Below, piece by piece: positions 47,762 to 58,800 of a DNA stretch of 58,884 nt. The stretch covers positions 1 through 58,884 of the forward strand of contig JAFQDE010000054.1 of NCBI GenBank assembly GCA_017416155.1, in the 5' to 3' direction. The notes beneath the pieces are model-generated. The model had not been told where the DNA came from. It saw only the letters and a list, made by a program, of their open reading frames with translations, and did no database searches. The DNA is from Tyzzerella sp. (GTDB lineage: Bacteria > Bacillota > Clostridia > Lachnospirales > Lachnospiraceae). Within the stretch, counting starts at the first letter, position 1; the number at the start of each line of letters is the position of its first letter. The position numbers and the translations under genes are program-made.

Positions 47762-47773
47762 GAAGTGAACGTT

Positions 47774-48613
47774 ATGTCAGAACAAGAAAAAAATGCATCA
47801 TGCTCCGCTGAAAGTTGCGCGGGATGTGCACATGCGAGTACCTGTGAAAGCAAAAAAGTGGACATGAAAATTGCACCAAATGAATATACTAATGTTAAGA
47901 AAGTTATCGGTGTCATTAGTGGGAAAGGCGGTGTTGGCAAATCCATGGTAACTGCCTCACTGGCAAGACAAATGAGAACTCAGGGATATTCTGTCGGCAT
48001 TTTGGATGCTGATATTACAGGACCATCCATTCCGAAAATGTATGGCGTGCATGAACATGCAGTAGGAACTGAGGTAGGTATGTTCCCATGTATTGCAAAG
48101 GATGAGACGAGAATTATGTCTGTAAATCTCCTTTTAGACAGTGAAGATACACCGGTGATTTGGAGAGGGCCGATTATCGCAGGAGTGGTAAAACAGTTTT
48201 GGGAGGAAGTACTTTGGGGAGATCTTGATTATCTTTTCGTAGACATGCCTCCGGGAACAGGAGATGTACCGCTTACGGTATTCCAATCCTTGCCGCTCGA
48301 CGGAGTTGTGATTGTAACGTCTCCGCAGGATTTGGTACAGATGATTGTTAAAAAGGCCTATCATATGGCAGAGGCGATGAATATTCCGGTACTAGGTATT
48401 GTAGAAAACTACAGTTATCTTGCTTGCCCGGACTGTGGTAAAAAAATTCACGTCTTTGGTGAAAGCCACATTGATGAAATAGCTGCCGACCTTGGCTTAA
48501 AAGTGCTTGGAAAGATGCCAATTGACCCTGCGCTTGCAGAGATGGTGGAAGCAGAGAAGTTCTATGAGGTGGACAATGATTATATAAAAGAAGCGGCAGA
48601 AGTATTGAAATAA
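47774..48613 (+). CDS. Mrp/NBP35-type P-loop ATPase for Fe-S cluster handling
   Basis: A 279-residue MinD-like ATPase. SGKGGVGKS (49-57) is the deviant Walker A, DADITGPSIPK and FVDMPPGTGD are Mrp signatures, and YLACPDCGKKI holds the CxxC that bridges a [4Fe-4S] cluster between two subunits. The extra N-terminal Cys-rich head (CSAESCAGCAHASTC) resembles that of eukaryal NBP35-type proteins and could hold a second cluster. It probably acts as a scaffold or carrier for iron-sulfur assembly in the cytoplasm, fitting the many Fe-S enzymes of this anaerobe. ATG 47774 follows GGAAGTG. The ATPase is followed by HPr 18 bases on. Confidence 0.9.
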   Translation: MSEQEKNASCSAESCAGCAHASTCESKKVDMKIAPNEYTNVKKVIGVISGKGGVGKSMVTASLARQMRTQGYSVGILDADITGPSIPKMYGVHEHAVGTEVGMFPCIAKDETRIMSVNLLLDSEDTPVIWRGPIIAGVVKQFWEEVLWGDLDYLFVDMPPGTGDVPLTVFQSLPLDGVVIVTSPQDLVQMIVKKAYHMAEAMNIPVLGIVENYSYLACPDCGKKIHVFGESHIDEIAADLGLKVLGKMPIDPALAEMVEAEKFYEVDNDYIKEAAEVLK

Positions 48614-48631
48614 AGGAAGGATGTACAAAGA

Positions 48632-48889
48632 ATGAAAGAGTTTAGGTATGTGATTACCGATGACCTTGGTATTCATGCCAGACCGGCAGGGTTGCTTGTA
48701 AAAGAAGCAGCACTATTTCAATCATACATCAAGATAAAAAAAGGCGAAAAAGAAGTGGACGCCAAAAGAATTTTCGGAATTATGGGATTAGCAGCAAAAA
48801 AAGGTGATGAGATTTTACTTACTGCAGAAGGAGCAGATGAGGACGAAGCAATTGCAGCCATCACAGAATTTTTGAAGGCTAATTTATAA
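48632..48889 (+). CDS. HPr-like phosphocarrier with Arg in place of regulatory Ser46
   Basis: An 85-residue PTS carrier. GIHARPAG places the phosphorylated His at residue 15, so phosphate transfer from enzyme I should work. The region that normally reads NxKSIMGVMSL, with Ser46 as target of HPr kinase, reads DAKRIFGIMGLAAKKGDEI: position 46 is Arg45-neighbouring Arg46 and Ser52 is Gly. It therefore cannot be phosphorylated at residue 46 and should escape HPrK/CcpA catabolite control. It is followed directly by enzyme I and a mannitol-type PTS permease, which suggests a dedicated or housekeeping-independent relay. Whether another, normal HPr exists is not visible here. Confidence 0.88.
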   Translation: MKEFRYVITDDLGIHARPAGLLVKEAALFQSYIKIKKGEKEVDAKRIFGIMGLAAKKGDEILLTAEGADEDEAIAAITEFLKANL

Positions 48890-48912
48890 TTTCTAGTAAG
48901 GAATGAAACACA

Positions 48913-50535
48913 ATGATTACATTAACAGGCAAGAGTGTCTTTGGTGGTGTAGAAATCGGTAAGATTTTATTCTATAAGAGAAACAGCCGACAGATTAGAA
49001 GGTGGCATGTAGAAGATACAGAGAATGAGGTTATTCGTTTTGAGAACGCAAAAGCAGAGGCAATTGTGCAACTCAAAGGGCTCTACGAGAAAGCTATGAA
49101 GGATGTCGGCGAAGAAAATGCGTTGATTTTTGAGATTCATCAAATGATGTTAGAGGATTTGGATTATTTAGAGTCCATTATTCATATCATCAAAAACCAG
49201 CAAGTAAATGCAGAGTATGCTGTTGCAACAACAGCAGATAATTTTGTGGCAATGTTTGTAGCAATGGATGATGCATATATGCAGGGACGAGCTACGGATG
49301 TGAAGGATGTATCAGAACGTATACTGAACATTCTCGCAGGCGCAGGAGGCACGATATTTTCCCTCGATGAGCCTACAATCATTGCCGCAGATGATTTAGT
49401 GCCAAGTGAGACAGTACAACTTGATAAGGAAAAAGTACTTGGATTTGCTACAATGTATGGCTCTTCCAACTCTCACACAGCAATCCTCGCAAGAACAATG
49501 AATATTCCTGCAATTATTGGTCTGGGGGAGGAATTGAGGGAAGAATACGACGGTGCTTATGCTGTAATTGATGGCTTTGACGGAAAGATCTATATAGACC
49601 CGGACGAAGAGACTTTGAAACTCATGAAGGAGAAACAGGCAATAGACCGTGAAAAGAAATTATTATTACAAGAGTTAAAAGGGAAAAAGAATGTAACGCG
49701 AAGTGGTCAGAAGATTCATATCTATGCCAATATTGGTAATGCATCAGATGTTGGTTTGGCACTGCAAAATGACGCCGGAGGCATCGGCCTCTTTCGAAGT
49801 GAATTCTTGTATTTGGAAAACAACACGTTTCCTACAGAAGATGAACAGTTTCAAGTATACAAGACTGTTGCTGAAAACATGGCTGGAAAGAAGGTCATTA
49901 TCCGTACATTAGATATCGGTGCAGATAAACAGGCAACATATTTTAATTTGCCACACGAAGAAAATCCTGCACTTGGTTATCGGGCAATTCGTATTTGTCT
50001 AACACAGACAGATGTTTTCAAAACTCAGTTACGTGCACTCTTACGTGCTTCCGCATATGGACAGATTGCAATTATGTTTCCAATGATTACGTCTGTATGG
50101 GAAGTGAGACGCATTAAAGACATCCTTGAGGAAGTAAGAGCAGAATTGCGAACGGACGGTATTCCATATAACGAAGAACTAGAAATCGGTCTTATGATTG
50201 AGACACCGGCGGCGGTTATGATAAGCCGTGAACTTGCGAAAGAGGTGGATTTCTTCAGTGTTGGAACAAATGATTTAACACAGTACACATTGGCAATTGA
50301 CAGACAAAATCCGAAGTTGGATGATTTTTATGACCCGCATCATCCGGCAGTACTTGCCATGATTCAGATGGTAGCCGACAGCATTCACGCGGAAGGTAAA
50401 TGGATTGGCATCTGCGGTGAACTTGGTGCGGATTTGGAGATGACAGAGACATTCCTAAAGATGGGAATTGATGAACTCTCTGTATCACCAGCTATGATTC
50501 TCTCGGTTCGAAAGAAAGTAAGAGAGACAGAGTAA
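48913..50535 (+). CDS. ptsI: PTS enzyme I (phosphoenolpyruvate-protein phosphotransferase)
   Basis: Takes phosphate from PEP and passes it to HPr. GSSNSHTAILARTMNIPAI holds the active His188 (usual GGRTSHSAI). The C-terminal PEP-binding barrel is complete: GGIGLFRSEFLYL, IIRTLDIGADKQ, NPALGYRAIRICL, FFSVGTNDLTQYTLAIDR, and GICGELGAD with the catalytic Cys. It has 540 residues, slightly shorter than the usual 570 at the N-terminal side. It sits 24 bases after the HPr gene and 27 before the mannitol permease. Confidence 0.95.
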   Translation: MITLTGKSVFGGVEIGKILFYKRNSRQIRRWHVEDTENEVIRFENAKAEAIVQLKGLYEKAMKDVGEENALIFEIHQMMLEDLDYLESIIHIIKNQQVNAEYAVATTADNFVAMFVAMDDAYMQGRATDVKDVSERILNILAGAGGTIFSLDEPTIIAADDLVPSETVQLDKEKVLGFATMYGSSNSHTAILARTMNIPAIIGLGEELREEYDGAYAVIDGFDGKIYIDPDEETLKLMKEKQAIDREKKLLLQELKGKKNVTRSGQKIHIYANIGNASDVGLALQNDAGGIGLFRSEFLYLENNTFPTEDEQFQVYKTVAENMAGKKVIIRTLDIGADKQATYFNLPHEENPALGYRAIRICLTQTDVFKTQLRALLRASAYGQIAIMFPMITSVWEVRRIKDILEEVRAELRTDGIPYNEELEIGLMIETPAAVMISRELAKEVDFFSVGTNDLTQYTLAIDRQNPKLDDFYDPHHPAVLAMIQMVADSIHAEGKWIGICGELGADLEMTETFLKMGIDELSVSPAMILSVRKKVRETE

Positions 50536-50561
50536 TAAAAAGAATAACGGAGGGTCATATA

Positions 50562-52352
50562 GTGAAAAACGCATTACAGAGATTTGGTAAGTTTCTCTCT
50601 GCAATGGTTATGCCAAATATTGGTGCATTTATTGCTTGGGGATTTATTACTGCATTATTTATTCCGGATGGATGGTTTCCAAATGAAGAACTTGCTTCCA
50701 TTCATCCATTTATGTTGAATTATCTGCTTCCTGCACTTATCGCTTACACAGGTGGTAAGATGATAGGCGGAAGTCGCGGGGGAGTTATGGGCGCCATTGC
50801 AGTTATGGGTTGTGTAGCCGGTTCTAGTCAACCTATGCTTATGGCAGCTATGGTTATGGGGCCTTTGTCAGGCTGGTTCATCAAGAAATTTGATGAAACT
50901 ATGGACGGACGAATGCCGGCTGGCTTTGAGATGTTAATCAACAACTTCTCAATCGGTATTTTTGGTATGGTACTTGCTATCATCGGATATTACTTAATCG
51001 GACCTTTTATGACAGGTGTCACAAACATATTAACAGCAGGTGTCGATTGGCTTGTAAATAAGAGCTTACTTCCGCTTGCAGCAATCTTTGTAGAACCTGC
51101 AAAAGTATTGTTCCTTAACAATGCAATTAATCATGGTGTATTCACACCAATTGGTGCCGAACAAGCGGCAGAGGTAGGAAAATCAATTATGTACATGATT
51201 GAAACAAACCCAGGTCCGGGACTAGGTGTTCTACTTGCTTATTGGTTTGCATCAAAAGATAAAAACACAAGAGATTCGGCACCGGGTGCTATTATCATCC
51301 ATTTCTTAGGTGGCATCCATGAGATTTATTTTCCATACATCTTGATGAATCCAGTTGTTATTATTGGACCAATTCTTGCAAATATTTGCGCAATTGCATT
51401 TTATAGTTTTACAAATTGCGGACTTGTCGGACCTGCTTCGCCTGGTTCTATCATCGCATATCTTGCGGTTTCACCAAAGAACCAGATTTTTACAGTTCTT
51501 CTTGGTGTGGCTTTGGCGGCAGTTGTTTCCTTCTTTATCAGTAGCTTTATCATCAAAGCAACAGAAGGGAAAACAGGTAAGAGTTTAGAGGAAGCACAGA
51601 TTCAAAAAGAGGTAATGAAAGCGGAAGCAAAGGGACTAGCTGTATCAACTGTAAAGAAAATTATCTTTGCGTGTGATGCAGGTATGGGTTCTTCTGCTAT
51701 GGGTGCAACCAAATTCCGCAACAGAATCAAAGATGTACGTCCGAGCATCATTGTTAAGAATTCATCAGTCGACAACATTCCGGCAGACTGTGATATTGCA
51801 GTTGTACAGGAAACGCTGCAGGAACGTGCAAGAGCGGCAGCACCACGGGCAAAGTTGGTTATCATCAACAACTTTCTGTCAGATCCTGAATTAGATGCTT
51901 TATATGCTCAGCTTGTAGACGGGGAAACAAAAACGGAAGTTTTTATTAAAGAAAGTATCAAGTTAAATCAACCTTCTGTAACAAAGGAGGAAGCAATTCG
52001 TGCAGCAGGAAAACTCCTTGTTGAGCGAGGATGTGTAGAGCCAAGTTACGTGGAAGCAATGCTGGAACGTGAAAAGATTGCAACTACATACATGGGTATG
52101 GGTATTGCAATTCCTCATGGAACATCAAAGGCGAAAGGTACAGTTAAGAAGACGGCTATCACAATGCTTCAATATCCGGAAGGTGTTGATTTTGGCGACG
52201 AAAAGGCTCAGTTGGTATTTGGCATCGCAGGTATCGGCGATGAGCATCTTGAACTTCTCAGTAAGATATCAGGAGCCTTGGATGCTCCGGAAGTTCTTGA
52301 TAAAATGAAGACTACAGATGATGTTGATTGGATCTTAGAAATCCTTTCATAA
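50562..52352 (+). CDS. mtlA: PTS mannitol-type permease, fused IIC-IIB-IIA
   Basis: The first about 335 residues are the multi-spanning IIC domain (MPNIGAFIAWGFITALFIPDGW, EPAKVLFLNNAINHGVFTPIG, GGIHEIYFPYILMNP, the last with the conserved GGIHE motif). Next is a IIB domain (IIFACDAGMGSSAMGA, phosphorylated Cys371) and then a IIA domain (GMGIAIPHGT, His519). Import and phosphorylation of mannitol is the family function. The C-B-A order on one chain is that of E. coli MtlA; in many Firmicutes IIA is separate. It has 596 residues. GTG 50562 has GGAGGG 8 bases upstream. No mtlD or MtlR gene lies in the window. Confidence 0.9.
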   Translation: MKNALQRFGKFLSAMVMPNIGAFIAWGFITALFIPDGWFPNEELASIHPFMLNYLLPALIAYTGGKMIGGSRGGVMGAIAVMGCVAGSSQPMLMAAMVMGPLSGWFIKKFDETMDGRMPAGFEMLINNFSIGIFGMVLAIIGYYLIGPFMTGVTNILTAGVDWLVNKSLLPLAAIFVEPAKVLFLNNAINHGVFTPIGAEQAAEVGKSIMYMIETNPGPGLGVLLAYWFASKDKNTRDSAPGAIIIHFLGGIHEIYFPYILMNPVVIIGPILANICAIAFYSFTNCGLVGPASPGSIIAYLAVSPKNQIFTVLLGVALAAVVSFFISSFIIKATEGKTGKSLEEAQIQKEVMKAEAKGLAVSTVKKIIFACDAGMGSSAMGATKFRNRIKDVRPSIIVKNSSVDNIPADCDIAVVQETLQERARAAAPRAKLVIINNFLSDPELDALYAQLVDGETKTEVFIKESIKLNQPSVTKEEAIRAAGKLLVERGCVEPSYVEAMLEREKIATTYMGMGIAIPHGTSKAKGTVKKTAITMLQYPEGVDFGDEKAQLVFGIAGIGDEHLELLSKISGALDAPEVLDKMKTTDDVDWILEILS

Positions 52353-52371
52353 TTGAATAGTGTGAGACAAC

Positions 52372-52410
52372 AGTGAGGTAAGAATTCATGTGATTCTTAC
52401 CTCACTTTCT
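52372..52410 (+). terminator. Strong intrinsic terminator after mtlA
   Basis: A perfect 14-bp stem AGTGAGGTAAGAAT / ATTCTTACCTCACT (52372-52385, 52393-52406), loop TCATGTG, then TTTCT. It ends the PTS operon. Confidence 0.88.
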
Positions 52411-52501
52411 ACGTATACAAAAAAACAATTGCTACAATTGTCAAAATATGGCAAAATGGTCTTAATATATTGACAAACGATAAAACCAAATGGGTGAAAA
52501 A

Positions 52502-53830
52502 ATGATTAGGGAATATACAAAAGAAAATGTTTATGAGGCGTTGCAAAGACGCCTCAAATATATCTTTGAAGAGTTTGACAATATCTTTGTTTCGTTTTCA
52601 GGAGGGAAGGACAGTGGTCTGCTCCTTGAGCTGACGTTAGATTTTCAACAGAAATATTATCCAAACAAAAAAATCGGTGTATATCATCAGGATTTTGAAG
52701 CTCAGTATGATGAGACTACGAAATATGTAGAACGTACTTTTGAACGAATAAAAGATAAAGCGGAATGTTATTGGGTGTGTCTCCCAATGGCTACAAGGAC
52801 AGCAGTCAGTAGTTATGAGATGTATTGGTATCCGTGGGACGATACAAAGGAAGATATATGGGTGCGACCGATGCCAGAACATCCGTATGTTATCAATTTG
52901 AACAACAATCCAATTACTACATATCATTATCGGATGCATCAAGAAGATTTAGCAAAGCAGTTTGGTCGTTGGTATCGCATCTCTCATGGCAACAAGAAGA
53001 CAGTATGTCTTTTAGGAATTCGTGCGGACGAATCAGTACAGAGATATAGCGGTATTTTTCGAAAAAAATATGGTTATCAGGGGACATGTTGGATTAGTAC
53101 ACAGTTCAAGAATGTGTGGGCTGCATCACCACTTTATGATTGGTCAAAAAGTGATGTTTGGCATGCAAACTATTTATTTAACTATGATTATAATAAGTTA
53201 TATGATCTATATTACAAAGCAGGTCTGACATTAGATCAGATGCGAGTGGCATCTCCATTCGGAGATTCGGCAAAAGACAGTTTGAATGTATATAGAGTGC
53301 TGGAACCTGAAACATGGGCTAAACTTGTTGGACGAGTAAGAGGTGCCAATTTTGGCGCAATTTATGGGCGGAGTAAAGCATTGGCTTATAAGAAGTTGGT
53401 GTTGCCGGAAGGACACACATGGCAGTCTTATACCAAGTTTTTGTTAGATACTCTACCACCTCGTGTTAGAAATAATTATGTAAAGAAATTTAAGACTTCT
53501 ATTCGTTTCTGGCATAACACTGGCGGAGGATTGGAGGAACATGTAATAGAAGAGCTGATTCAGAGAGGTTACAATATAAAAAGAAACGGAGTGTCTAATT
53601 ATACTTTGATGAAAAATTCCAGAGTGATTTTTGTCGGCGATATACCAGATCACACGGATGATATAAAATCTTCGAAAGACATTCCTAGTTGGAAGAGAAT
53701 GTGCTATTGTATTTTGAGGAATGATCATACATGTCGATTTATGGGATTCAATTTAACACGCGAGCAACAGCGCAACGTTGATATACTAAAGATGAAATAC
53801 AGTAAAGTAGGTGAAGAATATGGAATATAA
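52502..53830 (+). CDS. IbrA-like PAPS-reductase-fold protein (DUF3440)
   Basis: A 442-residue PP-loop protein. FVSFSGGKDSGLLLEL carries the ATP-pyrophosphatase loop Ser33-Gly-Gly-Lys-Asp-Ser38; VYHQDFEAQYDETT and CLLGIRADESVQRY are the PAPS-reductase/DndC-type signatures. Then a region DWSKSDVWHANYLFNYDYNKLYDLYYKAG, typical of the superfamily, and a C-terminal half of unknown fold (DUF3440-like) with late Cys (MCYCILRNDHTC). Such proteins adenylate or transfer sulfur; DndC uses one in DNA phosphorothioation. The partner ibrB-like gene overlaps by 11 bases. ATG 52502 is preferred (GGGTGA upstream); ATG 52490 is possible. The pair is set between two terminators. E. coli IbrA/IbrB are known from prophage and affect eib gene expression; the mechanism is not known to me. 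Confidence 0.82.
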   Translation: MIREYTKENVYEALQRRLKYIFEEFDNIFVSFSGGKDSGLLLELTLDFQQKYYPNKKIGVYHQDFEAQYDETTKYVERTFERIKDKAECYWVCLPMATRTAVSSYEMYWYPWDDTKEDIWVRPMPEHPYVINLNNNPITTYHYRMHQEDLAKQFGRWYRISHGNKKTVCLLGIRADESVQRYSGIFRKKYGYQGTCWISTQFKNVWAASPLYDWSKSDVWHANYLFNYDYNKLYDLYYKAGLTLDQMRVASPFGDSAKDSLNVYRVLEPETWAKLVGRVRGANFGAIYGRSKALAYKKLVLPEGHTWQSYTKFLLDTLPPRVRNNYVKKFKTSIRFWHNTGGGLEEHVIEELIQRGYNIKRNGVSNYTLMKNSRVIFVGDIPDHTDDIKSSKDIPSWKRMCYCILRNDHTCRFMGFNLTREQQRNVDILKMKYSKVGEEYGI

Positions 53831-54347
53831 AAGTCCTGTTTATAATGTAAAAGCAATACCTATAGAAAAGATTGTGGCAAATACATATAATCCTAATGCT
53901 GTTGCCCCACCAGAGATGAAATTACTCTATGATAGCATCAAGGAAGATGGTTATACGATGCCCATTGTTTGTTACCATGATGAGGGGAATGACAAGTATG
54001 TAATTGTTGATGGTTTTCACAGATATCGTGTGATGTTAGAACATAAAGATATTCGCGAGCGAGAAAAAGGAATGCTTCCGGTGTCTATCATTGATAAACC
54101 GCTTGACCACCGTATGGCAAGTACCATCCGCCATAATCGTGCGAGAGGTTCTCATAATGTGGATCTTATGAGTAATATCGTTAAAGAGTTACATGAACTG
54201 GGAAGGTCAGATGCGTGGATATCTAAACATCTCGGTATGGATAAAGATGAGATATTACGGCTTAAGCAGATTACAGGACTTGCGGCACTGTTTAAAGATG
54301 TTGAGTTTGGGCAGGCATGGAAGCCAGCAATGGAGGAAGAAGTGTAG
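53820..54347 (+). CDS. IbrB-like ParB-fold protein
   Basis: A 175-residue ParB/sulfiredoxin-fold protein. IPIEKIVANTYNPNAVAPPEM is the N-terminal ParB motif, DKYVIVDGFHRYRVML the GxxRxR-type nucleotide-binding box, and IRHNRARGSHNVDLM the second (P-like) box. Then a helix-turn-helix-like region (SDAWISKHLGMDKDEILRLKQITG). It lacks the dimerisation tail of chromosomal ParB, so it is not a partition protein. With the PAPS-reductase-like partner it forms the IbrAB pair. ATG 53820 with AGGTGA 6 bases upstream is chosen over GTG 53811; the overlap with the first gene is 11 bases, giving coupled translation. Confidence 0.82.
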   Translation: MEYKSPVYNVKAIPIEKIVANTYNPNAVAPPEMKLLYDSIKEDGYTMPIVCYHDEGNDKYVIVDGFHRYRVMLEHKDIREREKGMLPVSIIDKPLDHRMASTIRHNRARGSHNVDLMSNIVKELHELGRSDAWISKHLGMDKDEILRLKQITGLAALFKDVEFGQAWKPAMEEEV

Positions 54348-54358
54348 TGAGATATTAG

Positions 54359-54390
54359 AAGGAAGATGCTTTGAACGAGGTGTCTTCCTT
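54359..54390 (+). terminator. Hairpin terminator after the IbrAB module
   Basis: AAGGAAGA / TCTTCCTT (54359-54366, 54383-54390) with a 16-base loop, followed by AATTTG. The loop is long, so strength is moderate. Confidence 0.55.
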
Positions 54391-54532
54391 AATTTGTTCG
54401 GGTCATAGTCAATTGTGGATTTGCCTTTTGCATATATTACGGTGTACATTTTAATTCTTTCATATGCACAGTAAATGTCAAAATGTCACAAAAAAACCGA
54501 CAAATATTTGTCAAATCTAGCTATATTTTTAC
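54391..54532. other. Intergenic region upstream of ldh
   Basis: AT-rich spacer between the IbrAB terminator and the ldh promoter, without a recognised gene. It holds a direct repeat AATGTCA..AATGTCA (near 54472-54488) and the palindrome described separately. Confidence 0.4.
54499..54512. promoter_or_regulatory. Palindromic operator candidate upstream of ldh
   Basis: GACAAATATTTGTC is a perfect 14-base palindrome 21 bases upstream of the ldh -35 box. The position fits an activator. The binding protein is unknown. Confidence 0.4.
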
Positions 54533-54638: not shown

Positions 54639-55586
54639 ATGAAAAGAAAAATTACTATCATTGGAGCAGGAAGCGTTGGCTCAACAATCGCGTACACATT
54701 GTCAAATGATGATATCGCATCTGAAATCGTTATGATTGATATCAACAAACAAAAGGCAGAAGGTGAAGTTTTGGATATTATCCAAGGTACATGCTTTAGA
54801 GATCCAATTTCTATCATTGCAGGAGATTACGAGGACGCAGCTGGTTCTGATATCGTAATCATTACATCAGGTATTGCTCGTAAACCGGGTCAGACAAGAC
54901 TTGAGTTAGCGCAGACAAACGTGAATATCATGAAACAAATTGCACCACAAATCGCGAAAGCAGCACCAAATGCAATCTATGTTATCGTAAGTAATCCGGT
55001 TGATGTTATGACATATGTATTTACAAAGGTTTCAGGAATTCCTGAAAACCAAATCATCGGTTCAGGAACTGTTCTTGATACAGCAAGACTTCGCTGTGGT
55101 CTTTCAGAGCATTTCAACATTGCTCAAAAACATGTTCACGCTTATATCTATGGTGAACACGGAGATTCTTCATTTATTCCATGGAGTTGTGCCTCTATCT
55201 CGGCAGTGAAGGTCGATGAATATCCGGAAGCAATGAAGAGACTTGGAAGAGAAGTTGAGCCGGTTGATAAAGATGCTATGATTGAATACGTTCGTAAATC
55301 TGGCGGAAAGATTATTGCTAATAAGGGAGCTACCTTCTACGCAGTATCAGCATCTGTTGTTCAGCTATGTAAGAAATTAGTTGCTGCATCTGATTCTATG
55401 GCAACTGTTTCTACATTAATGCACGGCGAATACGGCATCGAAGATGTGTGCTTAAGTACATTATGTCTTGTAGGACCGGATGGATACCAAGGAAAAGTTC
55501 ACGTAGAACTTACAGATGAAGAAGTTGAAAAACTTCGCAAGAGTGCAGACGCTCTTAAGGCTGTTATTTCACAGATTGAGATCTAA
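54639..55586 (+). CDS. ldh: L-lactate dehydrogenase
   Basis: NADH-dependent reduction of pyruvate to L-lactate, regenerating NAD in fermentation. ITIIGAGSVGSTIAYTL binds NAD; ARKPGQTRLELAQ has the Gln that selects pyruvate over oxaloacetate (malate dehydrogenases have Arg), and IYGEHGDSSFIPW contains the catalytic His. It is 315 residues with AGGAGG at a proper distance. It has its own promoter and the Rex-like site. It is followed by hdrBCA with no terminator in the 39-base gap, so read-through is likely. Confidence 0.95.
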   Translation: MKRKITIIGAGSVGSTIAYTLSNDDIASEIVMIDINKQKAEGEVLDIIQGTCFRDPISIIAGDYEDAAGSDIVIITSGIARKPGQTRLELAQTNVNIMKQIAPQIAKAAPNAIYVIVSNPVDVMTYVFTKVSGIPENQIIGSGTVLDTARLRCGLSEHFNIAQKHVHAYIYGEHGDSSFIPWSCASISAVKVDEYPEAMKRLGREVEPVDKDAMIEYVRKSGGKIIANKGATFYAVSASVVQLCKKLVAASDSMATVSTLMHGEYGIEDVCLSTLCLVGPDGYQGKVHVELTDEEVEKLRKSADALKAVISQIEI

Positions 55587-55625
55587 TACATACTAGAATG
55601 CTATAAAATAGGAGAGGGAAATGAT

Positions 55626-56420
55626 ATGAAGTACAGTTATTATCCAGGATGTACCCTCAAAAACAAAGCAAAAGATTTGGACGCATATGCCAGAGCTTCT
55701 GCAAAAGCATTAGGTTTCGAATTGGAAGAGATTGAAGATTGGCAGTGCTGCGGTGGGGTTTACCCACTCGGCACTGACGAAATTGCTTCTAAGCTTTCTT
55801 CGGTTCGTACACTGAATGCGGCAAAAGAGAAGGGTCAGGACTTAGTAACACTTTGCTCAGCATGTCACCATGTTGTAAAACGTGTCAATGATGACATGAA
55901 GAACGTGGAAGATATTCGCACAAGAGCAAACAACTACATGCAGCTCGAAGAACCATATGCTGGCGAGACAGAGGTATTGCACTTCTTAGAAGTACTCCGC
56001 GACAGAGTTGGTTTTGACAAGTTGAAAGAAAAAGTGGTAAATCCACTGAAGGGCAAGAAAATCGGAGCATACTACGGATGCTTACTTCTTCGTCCGGGAA
56101 AAGTTTTGGGATTTGATAATCCTGAGAATCCAACCATCATCGAAGATTTTATCCGTGCAATCGGAGCAACACCGGTTGTATACCCATACCGCAATGAATG
56201 CTGTGGCGGATACATATCCTTAAAAGAAAAAGAGATGGCGAAAAACATGTGTGACAAGATAATTGACAGCGCAGAAGGCTTCGGCGCAGAAATGTTGATT
56301 ACGGCTTGTCCTCTTTGCATGTATAACCTTAATAAGAGCACAGAAGGCAAGATTCCTGTTGTATACTTTACAGAACTCTTAGCTGAGGCGCTCGGAGTAA
56401 AAGAGGAGGTAGAATTCTAA
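55626..56420 (+). CDS. hdrB: Heterodisulfide-reductase subunit B-like protein
   Basis: 264 residues with two CCG domains: YYPGC, DWQCCGG and CSAC form the first, and YYGCLLLRPG, NECCGGY and ACPLC the second. In methanogens these hold a pair of unusual noncubane [4Fe-4S] clusters that reduce a heterodisulfide. This organism lacks CoM/CoB, so the electron acceptor is different, possibly another disulfide or a partner enzyme. Its stop overlaps the ATG of hdrC (TAATG). AGGAGAGGG precedes the start. Confidence 0.9.
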   Translation: MKYSYYPGCTLKNKAKDLDAYARASAKALGFELEEIEDWQCCGGVYPLGTDEIASKLSSVRTLNAAKEKGQDLVTLCSACHHVVKRVNDDMKNVEDIRTRANNYMQLEEPYAGETEVLHFLEVLRDRVGFDKLKEKVVNPLKGKKIGAYYGCLLLRPGKVLGFDNPENPTIIEDFIRAIGATPVVYPYRNECCGGYISLKEKEMAKNMCDKIIDSAEGFGAEMLITACPLCMYNLNKSTEGKIPVVYFTELLAEALGVKEEVEF

Positions 56421-56806
56421 TGAGTCACGTAAATAAGGTTGATCAAATCAAAGAAATCAGCGGCGTGAATCCACTGAAATGTATGAAATGTGGAAAATGT
56501 TCTGCTTCCTGCCCATCCTTCAACGAGATGGACATCAAACCACACCAATTCGTATCTTACGTACAAAACGGAGATGTGGAAAGTTTGGTAAAATCAAAAT
56601 CACTTTGGAAATGTCTCTCATGCTTTGCGTGCTTAGAGCGTTGTCCAAGAGATGTAAAACCGGCAAAATTAATTGACGCAGCAAGACAAATCGTTGTTCG
56701 TGAAAAAGGTGCTACATATTTATCACCGGATGAAGTTCCGGAGCTTCTTGATGAAGAACTCCCACAACAACTTTTGGTTAGTGCATTCAGAAGATATAGG
56801 AGGTAA
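56420..56806 (+). CDS. hdrC: Heterodisulfide-reductase subunit C-like protein
   Basis: 128 residues with two ferredoxin-type cluster motifs, CMKCGKCSASCP (near 20) and CLSCFACLERCP (near 70). It passes electrons between the flavin subunit HdrA and HdrB. The start overlaps hdrB by one base with AGGAGG 10 bases ahead. Translation is coupled to both neighbours (hdrA starts 5 bases after the stop). Confidence 0.9.
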   Translation: MSHVNKVDQIKEISGVNPLKCMKCGKCSASCPSFNEMDIKPHQFVSYVQNGDVESLVKSKSLWKCLSCFACLERCPRDVKPAKLIDAARQIVVREKGATYLSPDEVPELLDEELPQQLLVSAFRRYRR

Positions 56807-56811
56807 GTCAC

Positions 56812-58800
56812 ATGCAGAGAATAGGAGTATTTGTCTGCCACTGTGGTAGCAATATCGCAGCGACGGTAGACGTGAAAAAAGTTGCAGAGATGGCTCTTTT
56901 AGAGCCGGGCGTTGTTCATGCAGAAGATTACCAATATATGTGTTCTGAAGCAGGACAGGCAAAGATTCAGGCTGCAATCAAAGAAAAGAATTTAACAGGA
57001 ATCGTTGTATGTTCTTGTTCACCACGTATGCATGAAAATACATTCAGAAACGCAGCTGAAAAAGCAGGCATTAACCCATACATGGTAGAGATTGCAAACA
57101 TTCGTGAACACTGTTCATGGATTCACAAGGATATGGAAGAGGCTACAGAAAAAGCCGTTATCCTTGCAAGAGCAGCGATTGCGAAAGTGAACTTAAATGC
57201 ACCACTTAAACCGGGCGAGAGCTTAGTTACAAAGCGTGCACTCGTAATCGGTGGTGGTATCGCAGGTATCCAGACTGCAATCGATATTGCAGATGCAGGA
57301 TACGAAGTAGATATCGTAGAGAAGACACCAAGTATCGGTGGTAGAATGTCTCAGTTAGACAAGACATTCCCAACACTTGACTGTTCAGCATGTATCCTCA
57401 CACCGAAGATGGTAGAAGCTGCAGCTCACGAAAAGATTACAATCTATACATATAGTGAAGTTGAAAAAGTATCTGGCTTCGTTGGTGATTTCACAGTAGA
57501 TATCCGCAAGAAAGCAAGATATGTAGATGCAAATAAATGTACAGGTTGTGGCGTTTGTCAGGAAAAATGTCCATCTAAGAAGTCATTAAGTGAATTCAAC
57601 CGTGGACTTAACACAAGAAGTGCCATCTACACACCATTTGCGCAGGCAATTCCAAATGTACCTGTAATTGATACAGAGGCATGTATCAAGATGAAGACAG
57701 GCAAGTGTGGTATCTGTTCAAAGGTATGTCAGGCAGGTGCTATTGACTACGAACAAAAAGATGAGATTTTGACACAAAAATACGGTGCAATCGTGGTTGC
57801 AACAGGTTTCGATACAATCAAGCTTGACAACTATGATGAGTATGCATACAACCAGAGCAAGGATGTTATCACATCACTGGAATTAGAGCGTGTTATGAAT
57901 GCTGCTGGTCCTACAAAGGGACATCTGGAACGTCTTTCTGACGGAAAACATCCGAAGGAAATGGTATTTATCCAATGTGTTGGTAGCCGTTGTGCAGATG
58001 GCAGAGGAAAGAGCTACTGTTCTAAGATTTGTTGTATGTACACAGCTAAGCATGCAATGTTAATCCGTGACAAATATCCGGATGTAAACGTTACAGTATT
58101 CTACATTGATGTTCGTACACCAGGTAAGAACTTCGATGAGTTCTATAGAAGAGCTGTGGAAGATTACGGTGTAAATTATGTCAAAGGTCAGGTTGGTAAG
58201 GTTATTCCTCAGCCAAATGGAAAACTCCTTGTACAGGGTGTTGACCTCTTAGACAACAAGCAGATTATGAAAGAAGCAGATATGGTTGTTCTTGCAACAG
58301 CAATTGAACCAAATCCGGATGTTCGTAAAATCGCAACTATGCTTACAGCAAGTATCGATACTAACAACTTCCTTACAGAATCACATGCAAAACTTCGTCC
58401 GGTAGAATCACCAACAGCAGGTGTATTCTTATCAGGAGTTTGTCAGGGACCAAAAGATATCCCTGAGACAGTAGCACAGGCAGGTGCTGCGGCCGTAAAA
58501 GCAATCGGTTTGTTAGCAAAAGATAAGCTTCTTACAAACCCATGTACAGCAAAACCAGATGAGTTATTGTGTAACGGATGTTCAAACTGTGCAAACGTTT
58601 GTCCATACGGAGCAATCTCATACGAAGAGAAAGAAGTAAATGACCACGGTATCCGTGAGACACGCCGAATTGCTGTTGTAAACAGTGCACTTTGCCAAGG
58701 CTGTGGTGCTTGTACAGTAGTTTGTCCGTCAGGTGCTATGGACTTACAAGGATTCTCAAATAGACAGATTATAGCGGAGGTAGATGCAATATGTCGATAG
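56812..58800 (+). CDS. hdrA: Heterodisulfide-reductase subunit A-like flavoprotein
   Basis: 662 residues. Domains in order: N-terminal region with [11 protein letters not shown] and [14 protein letters not shown] (Cys ligands of an extra cluster), FAD fold ([21 protein letters not shown], near 145), [12 protein letters not shown], an inserted ferredoxin part ([12 protein letters not shown] and [13 protein letters not shown]), a second nucleotide half (FIQCVGSRC), and a C-terminal two-cluster ferredoxin ([30 protein letters not shown]). HdrA is the flavin-based electron-bifurcating core. AGGAGG precedes ATG 56812. Its end overlaps the start of mvhD. Confidence 0.92.

Follow-up and report, generated by a model that had tools for sequence, protein, structure and literature searches.

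A sporadic IbrA–IbrB gene pair in a Tyzzerella chromosome and the EctC-like and SNF2-like partners of its viral relatives

The ibrA–ibrB gene pair was analysed in contig JAFQDE010000054.1 of a Tyzzerella sp. genome (assembly GCA_017416155.1), a stretch of 58,884 nucleotides, hereafter the window, which is the entire contig C50 of a 2.07 Mb genome that is 84% complete. Sequence comparisons indicate that the pair is an accessory, two-gene chromosomal cassette whose acquisition is well supported and whose transfer was probably lateral. The pair in the window itself adds one more member to a family already known; what surprises is an operon of viruses in which IbrA and IbrB are joined by a protein resembling ectoine synthase (EctC). 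Tentatively, and with somewhat less than even confidence, we propose that the laterally acquired cassette encodes a two-part, ATP-dependent nucleic-acid-modifying enzyme.

The two genes and their predicted products

Both genes are intact, lie on the forward strand and overlap by 11 bases. The first, ibrA (52502..53830, with a further in-frame ATG at 52490), encodes 442 residues that form a PP-loop (PAPS_reduct) domain at about residues 4–268 followed by a DUF3440 C-terminal domain. The second, ibrB (53820..54347), begins at the ATG at 53820, where the open reading frame (ORF) lister begins instead at GTG 53811, and its product of 175 residues is predicted to comprise a ParB-fold nucleoside triphosphate (NTP)-binding domain and a KorB-like DNA-binding domain, without a dimerisation tail. 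IbrA matches Pfam PF11922 (DUF3440; 277 bits, cut-off 25, E 1e-82) and PF01507 (PAPS_reduct; 45 bits, cut-off 22.5, E 1.6e-11), IbrB matches PF02195 (ParB_N; 28.4 bits, cut-off 26.3, E 1.7e-6), and the PHROG matches are phrog_2302 for IbrA (phosphoadenosine phosphosulfate (PAPS) reductase, E 1e-103) and phrog_2159 for IbrB (ParB-like partition protein, E 1e-79). Matches of this strength argue against chance ORFs and, with ibrB directly downstream of ibrA, bear out the identity given by the original prediction, which had been made from the letters alone; both genes lie at the positions that it gave, and the overlap and the four motifs that it named (SGGKDS, LxGIRxxES, GFHRYR and an Arg/Asn box) were all found.

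The ATP-binding PP-loop of IbrA, SGGKDS (residues 33–38; 52598..52615), which we take to be of the ATP type as opposed to the PAPS-reductase type, recurs as SGGKDS or SAGKDS in 15 of 15 rows of one alignment and as SGGKDS in all 153 homologues collected, a count that is partly built in by the SFSGGKD pattern with which the search was seeded. The LLGIRADES motif follows at residues 170–178 (53009..53035). In the C-terminal tail, Cys411 (53732..53734) is near-invariant: each of 154 aligned rows has it, one of them from the window, and the sole exception met outside these rows is an Ala in Lactobacillus phage AQ113. The predicted structure of IbrA is nearest to FAD synthase and ATP sulfurylase, with CysH also among the best 50 matches that were considered in each structure-search list. 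ECGLH, the C-terminal catalytic motif of CysH/PAPS reductase, is absent from IbrA of the window and from 153 of 153 homologues, and the NCBIfam CysH models score far under their cut-offs (NF002537, 14.4 against 154; TIGR00434, 11.3 against 165.1). This rules out a sulfate-assimilation reductase, in agreement with the original prediction, and narrows the function of the pair: a nucleotide-activated role for IbrA is supported as one that fits the predicted folds.

For IbrB, the nearest structural match of the model is KorB. The DGFHRYR box (residues 64–70, with GFHRYR at 65–70; 54009..54029) presumably sits where ParB has its first phosphate motif, and the RHNRARGSH box (residues 104–112, or RHNRARGSHN at 104–113; 54129..54155) falls within residues 97–154 (54108..54281), which in the predicted structure match the operator-binding domain of KorB. 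The modelled chain ends at residue 175, one helix past the DNA-binding domain, with no C-terminal dimerisation domain. As had been claimed, there is no partition partner: judged by eye, no ParA gene was seen among the neighbours in the window.

Occurrence and site of the pair in bacteria

The distribution of the pair is sporadic. Counting the window's own genome, ibrA is present in two of ten genomes of the genus and in none of the four of good quality. In an even draw across the family it gave a match in 55 of 299 genomes, of which 46 are near full-length at an identity of at least 67% (a single internal stop interrupts two of these), three are fragmented, four are divergent partial matches at 37–39% and two are marginal. 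In a phylum-wide draw DUF3440 was found in four of 398 genomes, again with the window's own genome included. Copies of ibrA are broken or fragmented in the family members G134:C6, G037:C4 and G261:C152, which points to a dispensable pair.

Where ibrA occurs, ibrB accompanies it. The co-occurrence that the original prediction proposed to look for in relatives was seen in 29 of 30, with ibrB directly after ibrA, and the contig of the 30th stops at ibrA; ibrB also follows ibrA in 79 of 80 further loci from GTDB genomes, in 20 of them with the identical 11-base overlap. The surroundings are less constant. Among the neighbours listed for 13 relatives (12 genomes of the same family and the congener G002), neighbourhood clustering found no recurrent family beyond a few generic ones; a gene read as prolyl-tRNA synthetase recurs near the pair in two of these genomes, and no metabolic neighbour recurs.

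Comparison with congeners locates the difference. In the window, a stretch holding genes read by eye as HPr, EI and mannitol-type EII of the phosphotransferase system (PTS), followed by ibrA and ibrB (48614..54522, no strand assigned), occupies ~5.9 kb, where G002 has a homologue of window positions 47765–48613, then ~115 bp, then a match to window positions from 54523 onward, where the lactate-dehydrogenase operon has its promoter. The close relative G002 therefore lacks the pair at this site, and it carries its own ibrAB on another contig, with an IbrA 81% identical to that of the window and DNA similarity limited to window positions 52511–54325, the pair alone. In a second congener, G003, a gene read by eye as mannitol-dehydrogenase-like comes after the PTS gene instead; no mannitol dehydrogenase adjoins the PTS gene of the window, and a relative at 57% identity lies on another contig. 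Since the pair is sporadic, differently placed in two congeners and missing from this site in G002, it looks acquired, as had been suggested, and its different places in the two congeners favour movement. A quick tree, in which the chromosomal IbrA sequences of gut bacteria form one supported group and rows from Phascolarctobacterium, Anaeroplasma and Oscillospiraceae fall among those of Lachnospiraceae, fits lateral spread among gut bacteria; the first group outside that of the gut bacteria consists of four viral loci (L155, L157, L158 and L182).

Several points limit this reading. Loss of the pair in G002 is an alternative to gain, and the ~5.9-kb segment without a counterpart there includes the PTS genes besides ibrAB. 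Branches in the tree are long and many of its forks poorly supported, and some of its rows may reflect contamination of genome bins. The G+C content of the two genes (0.375 and 0.398) is near that of the whole window (0.398), so that composition gives the pair no foreign mark, and a search for flanking repeats as a mark of mobility found just imperfect short pairs. The claim of clean borders formed by terminators is the weaker part of the original observation: a repeat does lie on each side, namely a perfect 14-bp inverted repeat 5′ of ibrA (52372..52406, forward strand), possibly the terminator of the preceding operon, and a terminator-like hairpin of 14 pairs 3′ of ibrB (54359..54390, forward strand). 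However, the former is unlisted by the terminator scan, and the scan returned two sites against 1.0 in shuffled sequence (standard deviation 1.0), one of the two inside ibrA.

By eye, the pair has PTS genes on one side and lactate dehydrogenase/Hdr-like genes on the other. The latter, a lactate/malate-dehydrogenase-like gene followed by HdrB-, HdrC- and HdrA-like genes (54639–58800), form an operon that is conserved in five congeners (G002, G003, G004, G006 and G007) and is possibly an electron-bifurcating lactate or malate module.

Partners of IbrAB in viruses

Viral loci were fetched in three sets of 80, with IbrA, EctC and IbrB as queries. Searches were seeded by short conserved patterns (SFSGGKD for IbrA, ECYC for EctC) and the best 80 were kept, from 232 relatives for EctC and among the matches listed for IbrA and IbrB; some loci are shared, and the sets are not independent. 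In the IbrA set, a tblastn recheck found ibrB in 79 of 80 loci. EctC was found in 43 of the 80 by neighbour clustering (44 by tblastn), and 20 of these 43 lie in ORFs of more than 240 aa that we take to be fusions to IbrB. An SNF2-like helicase, usually directly upstream of ibrA, is present in 30 of the 80 loci by either method, and each of the 30 has a match among the helicases of four phage isolates that score above cut-off for Pfam SNF2-rel_dom. EctC and SNF2 occur together in a single locus of the 80 (tblastn). A protein of ~140 aa is encoded in 47 loci (48 by tblastn); for the two stand-alone members scanned, neither Pfam, at its cut-off, nor PHROG gave a match. By tblastn, none of these three partners was found in any of the 80 GTDB loci or 30 family loci. 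The description of the pair as an isolated module is thus true of the chromosomal pair, but not of the viral one, which has recurrent partners.

The association also holds in reverse. Of the 80 viral EctC loci, 78 contain ibrA, 77 ibrB, 68 the ~140-aa gene and 7 SNF2, the first figure concerning the EctC subfamily that carries the ECYC seed. Among the 80 viral IbrB loci, ibrA is present in 79, EctC in 33, SNF2 in 35, and EctC with SNF2 in 2. In a collection of 50,697 phage records, five match EctC; in four of them (Gaia twice, Nebkiss and XCL1123) EctC adjoins PAPS reductase and ParB genes, and in the fifth no ibrA was found in the 7.6 kb covered. Some depositors have named the product in these four 'ectoine synthase/ParB multidomain protein', so annotators already knew of the EctC–ParB fusion; no paper on an EctC–IbrB fusion was found by title or opening of the abstract among open-access PMC texts.

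Free copies of the DUF3440 tail, of 75–88 aa, were found in 16 of the 80 viral IbrA loci (L172 8135–8398, L217 6847–7074 and 14 others). Two that were scanned match PF11922 with E 2e-7 and 5e-4, the second under the cut-off, and the tail cysteine is present in one of five inspected; in L181 a DUF3440-like tail is fused to the ~140-aa neighbour. Two further neighbour clusters, 6 and 7 (e.g. L174 3261–4388 and L160 843–1166), are recurrent genes upstream of viral ibrA in 12 and 11 of the 80 loci, mostly with SNF2, and scanned members match PHROG 16123 and 5809. In Fusobacterium phage phiFN37 (L068 10751–13060), a second ParB-like gene lies beside a queuine tRNA-guanine transglycosylase (TGT)-like gene and a queuosine precursor transporter, ~3 kb from ibrB, so that this phage also has a Dpd-like pair. 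Within 160 fetched viral and bacterial loci, no relative of this TGT was found among the ORFs, and the second ParB has one relative, in viral L209.

The residues of the viral EctC proteins suggest a retained chemistry on a possibly different substrate. With the iron ligands, substrate residues and numbering of PMC6344544 (as given in an excerpt of that paper, by which the function of orphan EctC proteins is not yet clear), the ligands Glu57, Tyr84 and His92 are kept in 43 of 43 viral EctCs, as are Ser23, Arg25, Thr40 and Tyr52. Trp21 is replaced in all 43 (by Gly in 37) and Asn38 in 42. The change at Asn38 is not decisive alone, since 5bxx, a true ectoine synthase, has His at the aligned position. 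From these sequences the chemistry is probably kept, and the substrate may be different. On chromosomes, the EctC family is over cut-off in six of 398 genomes of the phylum-wide draw; of these, four are full-length (L236–L239) and appear unlinked to IbrA, with no ibrA within flanks of up to 1.5 kb on each side. EctC was not found in the window's genome, which is 84% complete, in a search whose control genomes gave no match.

Possible roles and likeness to known systems

In the mechanism that we propose, IbrB would bind DNA under nucleotide control and position IbrA, an ATP pyrophosphatase of the PAPS-reductase/FAD-synthase/ATP-sulfurylase fold that would adenylate its target or transfer sulfur, with Cys411 and Cys93 as possible sulfur carriers. 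The viral product would probably be elaborated by the EctC-like cyclase or handled with the SNF2-like helicase, and the chromosomal cassette would operate without both. What the analysis shows is that the two genes go together, that they are accessory and scattered, that IbrA has an ATP-type loop and a conserved tail cysteine, and which folds are predicted. Lateral transfer, DNA binding, adenylation, the chemistry and the choice of DNA as target, over RNA or a small molecule, we infer. A loader with a modifying enzyme is the simplest arrangement because a predicted nucleotide-controlled DNA-binding protein is nearly always beside a predicted ATP-activating enzyme, and genes for replication and recombination are close by in several phages. 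Since the viral partners are missing from the window, its pair presumably has a simpler task or draws on enzymes of the host.

A farther-reaching version, which we consider rather unlikely, is that IbrAB stands at the centre of a nucleic-acid hypermodification pathway not described before. IbrB would load IbrA on DNA, and IbrA would use ATP to adenylate or thiolate a base. An ectoine-like ring would then be closed, in many viruses, by the EctC-type iron enzyme, whose pocket is altered, with the help of the new ~140-aa protein. The gut cassette would then be a stripped, laterally spread two-gene form, and viral auxiliary metabolic genes labelled 'cysH' or 'ectoine synthase' would in many cases belong to this pathway and not to sulfur or osmolyte metabolism.

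Alternatively, the pair may be a regulator in which IbrB is a nucleotide-gated DNA-binding switch like KorB or VirB and IbrA makes or senses its nucleotide signal. We consider this unlikely, though a real rival. In its favour, KorB is the nearest structural match of the IbrB model, the annotation of phage copies makes them co-activators of gene expression in prophages, and an excerpt of PMC9068703 terms ybdM a predicted transcription factor. It leaves unexplained, however, why IbrB is so strictly paired with a PP-loop protein that looks catalytic and, in viruses, with EctC, and no target gene recurs beside the pair among the neighbours listed for the 13 relatives.

More doubtful is the making of a small molecule from an amino acid, with IbrB as a SerK/SbnI-like kinase, IbrA adenylating or thiolating, the viral EctC closing the ring and no nucleic acid as target. 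The structural match of IbrB to SerK/SbnI spans 78–83 residues only, and its score against the SerK equivalog is 23.4 bits with a cut-off of 380. The predicted KorB-like DNA-binding domain of IbrB speaks against this reading, as does the alteration, in nearly all viral EctCs, of the Trp21 and Asn38 that bind the ectoine precursor, notwithstanding the one true ectoine synthase that also lacks Asn38.

The original prediction offered a nucleotide-activated modification or defence unit. The first part fits the predicted folds; the second is unsupported, and we regard stand-alone anti-phage defence, or a toxin–antitoxin pair, as improbable. The patchy distribution and the broken copies would suit it, Listeria lmo1309/lmo1310 are listed as a putative toxin–antitoxin pair by neighbourhood in an excerpt of PMC7020466, and genes read by eye as zeta-toxin-like (L045 14284–14841, in G002) and Fic-like (L058 25–753) lie at ~3.5 kb and ~8 kb, respectively, from ibrAB. 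Nevertheless, no defence system was recognised by eye among the neighbours listed for 13 loci, at which no defence scan was aimed, and PADLOC gave IbrA weak DndC and BrxP scores. Phages themselves carry ibrAB, and the presence of ybdNM-like DNA in 5370 of 5426 complete E. coli genomes (in 5350 the match spans 80% or more of the query) is atypical for a defence gene.

An assimilatory CysH with an unrelated neighbour is already contradicted and has next to no likelihood: the PAPS_reduct match, the many phage and plasmid copies annotated as PAPS reductase and the CysH-like structural matches are outweighed by the missing ECGLH, the PP-loop assumed to be of ATP type, the low CysH model scores and the strict pairing with IbrB.

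The family is found in nearly all E. coli (as ybdNM), in phages, on plasmids and in gut Firmicutes, and the literature searched, mostly by title and abstract listing, yielded no biochemical function of IbrA/IbrB or ybdNM. The role of IbrAB and that of EctC proteins outside ectoine operons can be tested together. Excerpts of PMC8725595 and PMC13079714 read viral PAPS-reductase genes as sulfate assimilation and viral ectoine synthase as osmoprotection, respectively. Since viral ibrAB often travels with an ectoine-synthase-like enzyme, our results suggest that some viral genes now assigned to the metabolism of sulfate or osmolytes are parts of one pathway with IbrAB, and caution is advisable where such readings are made without a check for adjoining IbrA/IbrB.

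Among known systems, DndC and BrxP of phosphorothioate systems align with IbrA over parts of the PP-loop domain, but membership of DndC was rejected on a score of 24.9 bits against an NCBIfam equivalog cut-off of 290.4, no conserved cysteine cluster was found across the aligned IbrA homologues, and the partner is different. IbrB is predicted to share an NTP-binding fold and a DNA-binding domain with ParB/Noc and with KorB of plasmid RK2, a CTP-dependent repressor, but its model lacks their C-terminal dimerisation domain, no ParA adjoins it (by eye), and its GFHRYR and RHNRARGSH boxes differ from the canonical GERR and ENxxR. In DpdA–DpdB, a TGT with a ParB-like ATPase (excerpt of PMC12839542), an enzyme of the modifying type is likewise paired with a ParB-like protein; our loader model is likened to it since such a partner also serves DpdA, whereas IbrA is unrelated to TGT and IbrAB is known here from genes and predicted structures.

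The phage IbrA–EctC–IbrB sets are those of Mycobacterium phages Gaia and Nebkiss and Pseudoalteromonas phage XCL1123. IbrA and IbrB of Gaia and XCL1123 are ~40% and 60–62% identical to those of the window, and these two phages also have the ~140-aa protein; the sets carry EctC, free or fused to IbrB, and the window has neither partner. On plasmids, IbrA matches were found in 595 records, mostly from Klebsiella and Escherichia, and in L073, a Klebsiella pneumoniae plasmid, ibrAB lies directly upstream of the salmochelin genes iroBCD and iroN. DNA similar to plasmid ibrAB is present in 2124 of the 5426 E. coli genomes (2006 over 80%), and ybdNM is repressed by CitR according to an excerpt of PMC9068703. 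E. coli IbrA/IbrB and YbdN/YbdM of K-12 belong to the same two families in the same order as the pair in the window; ybdNM-like DNA is near-core in E. coli, in contrast to the sporadic cassette described here, and the E. coli IbrA proteins are ~29–34% identical to that of the window, with the tail motif ND..C kept in the copy inspected, as in IbrA of the window.
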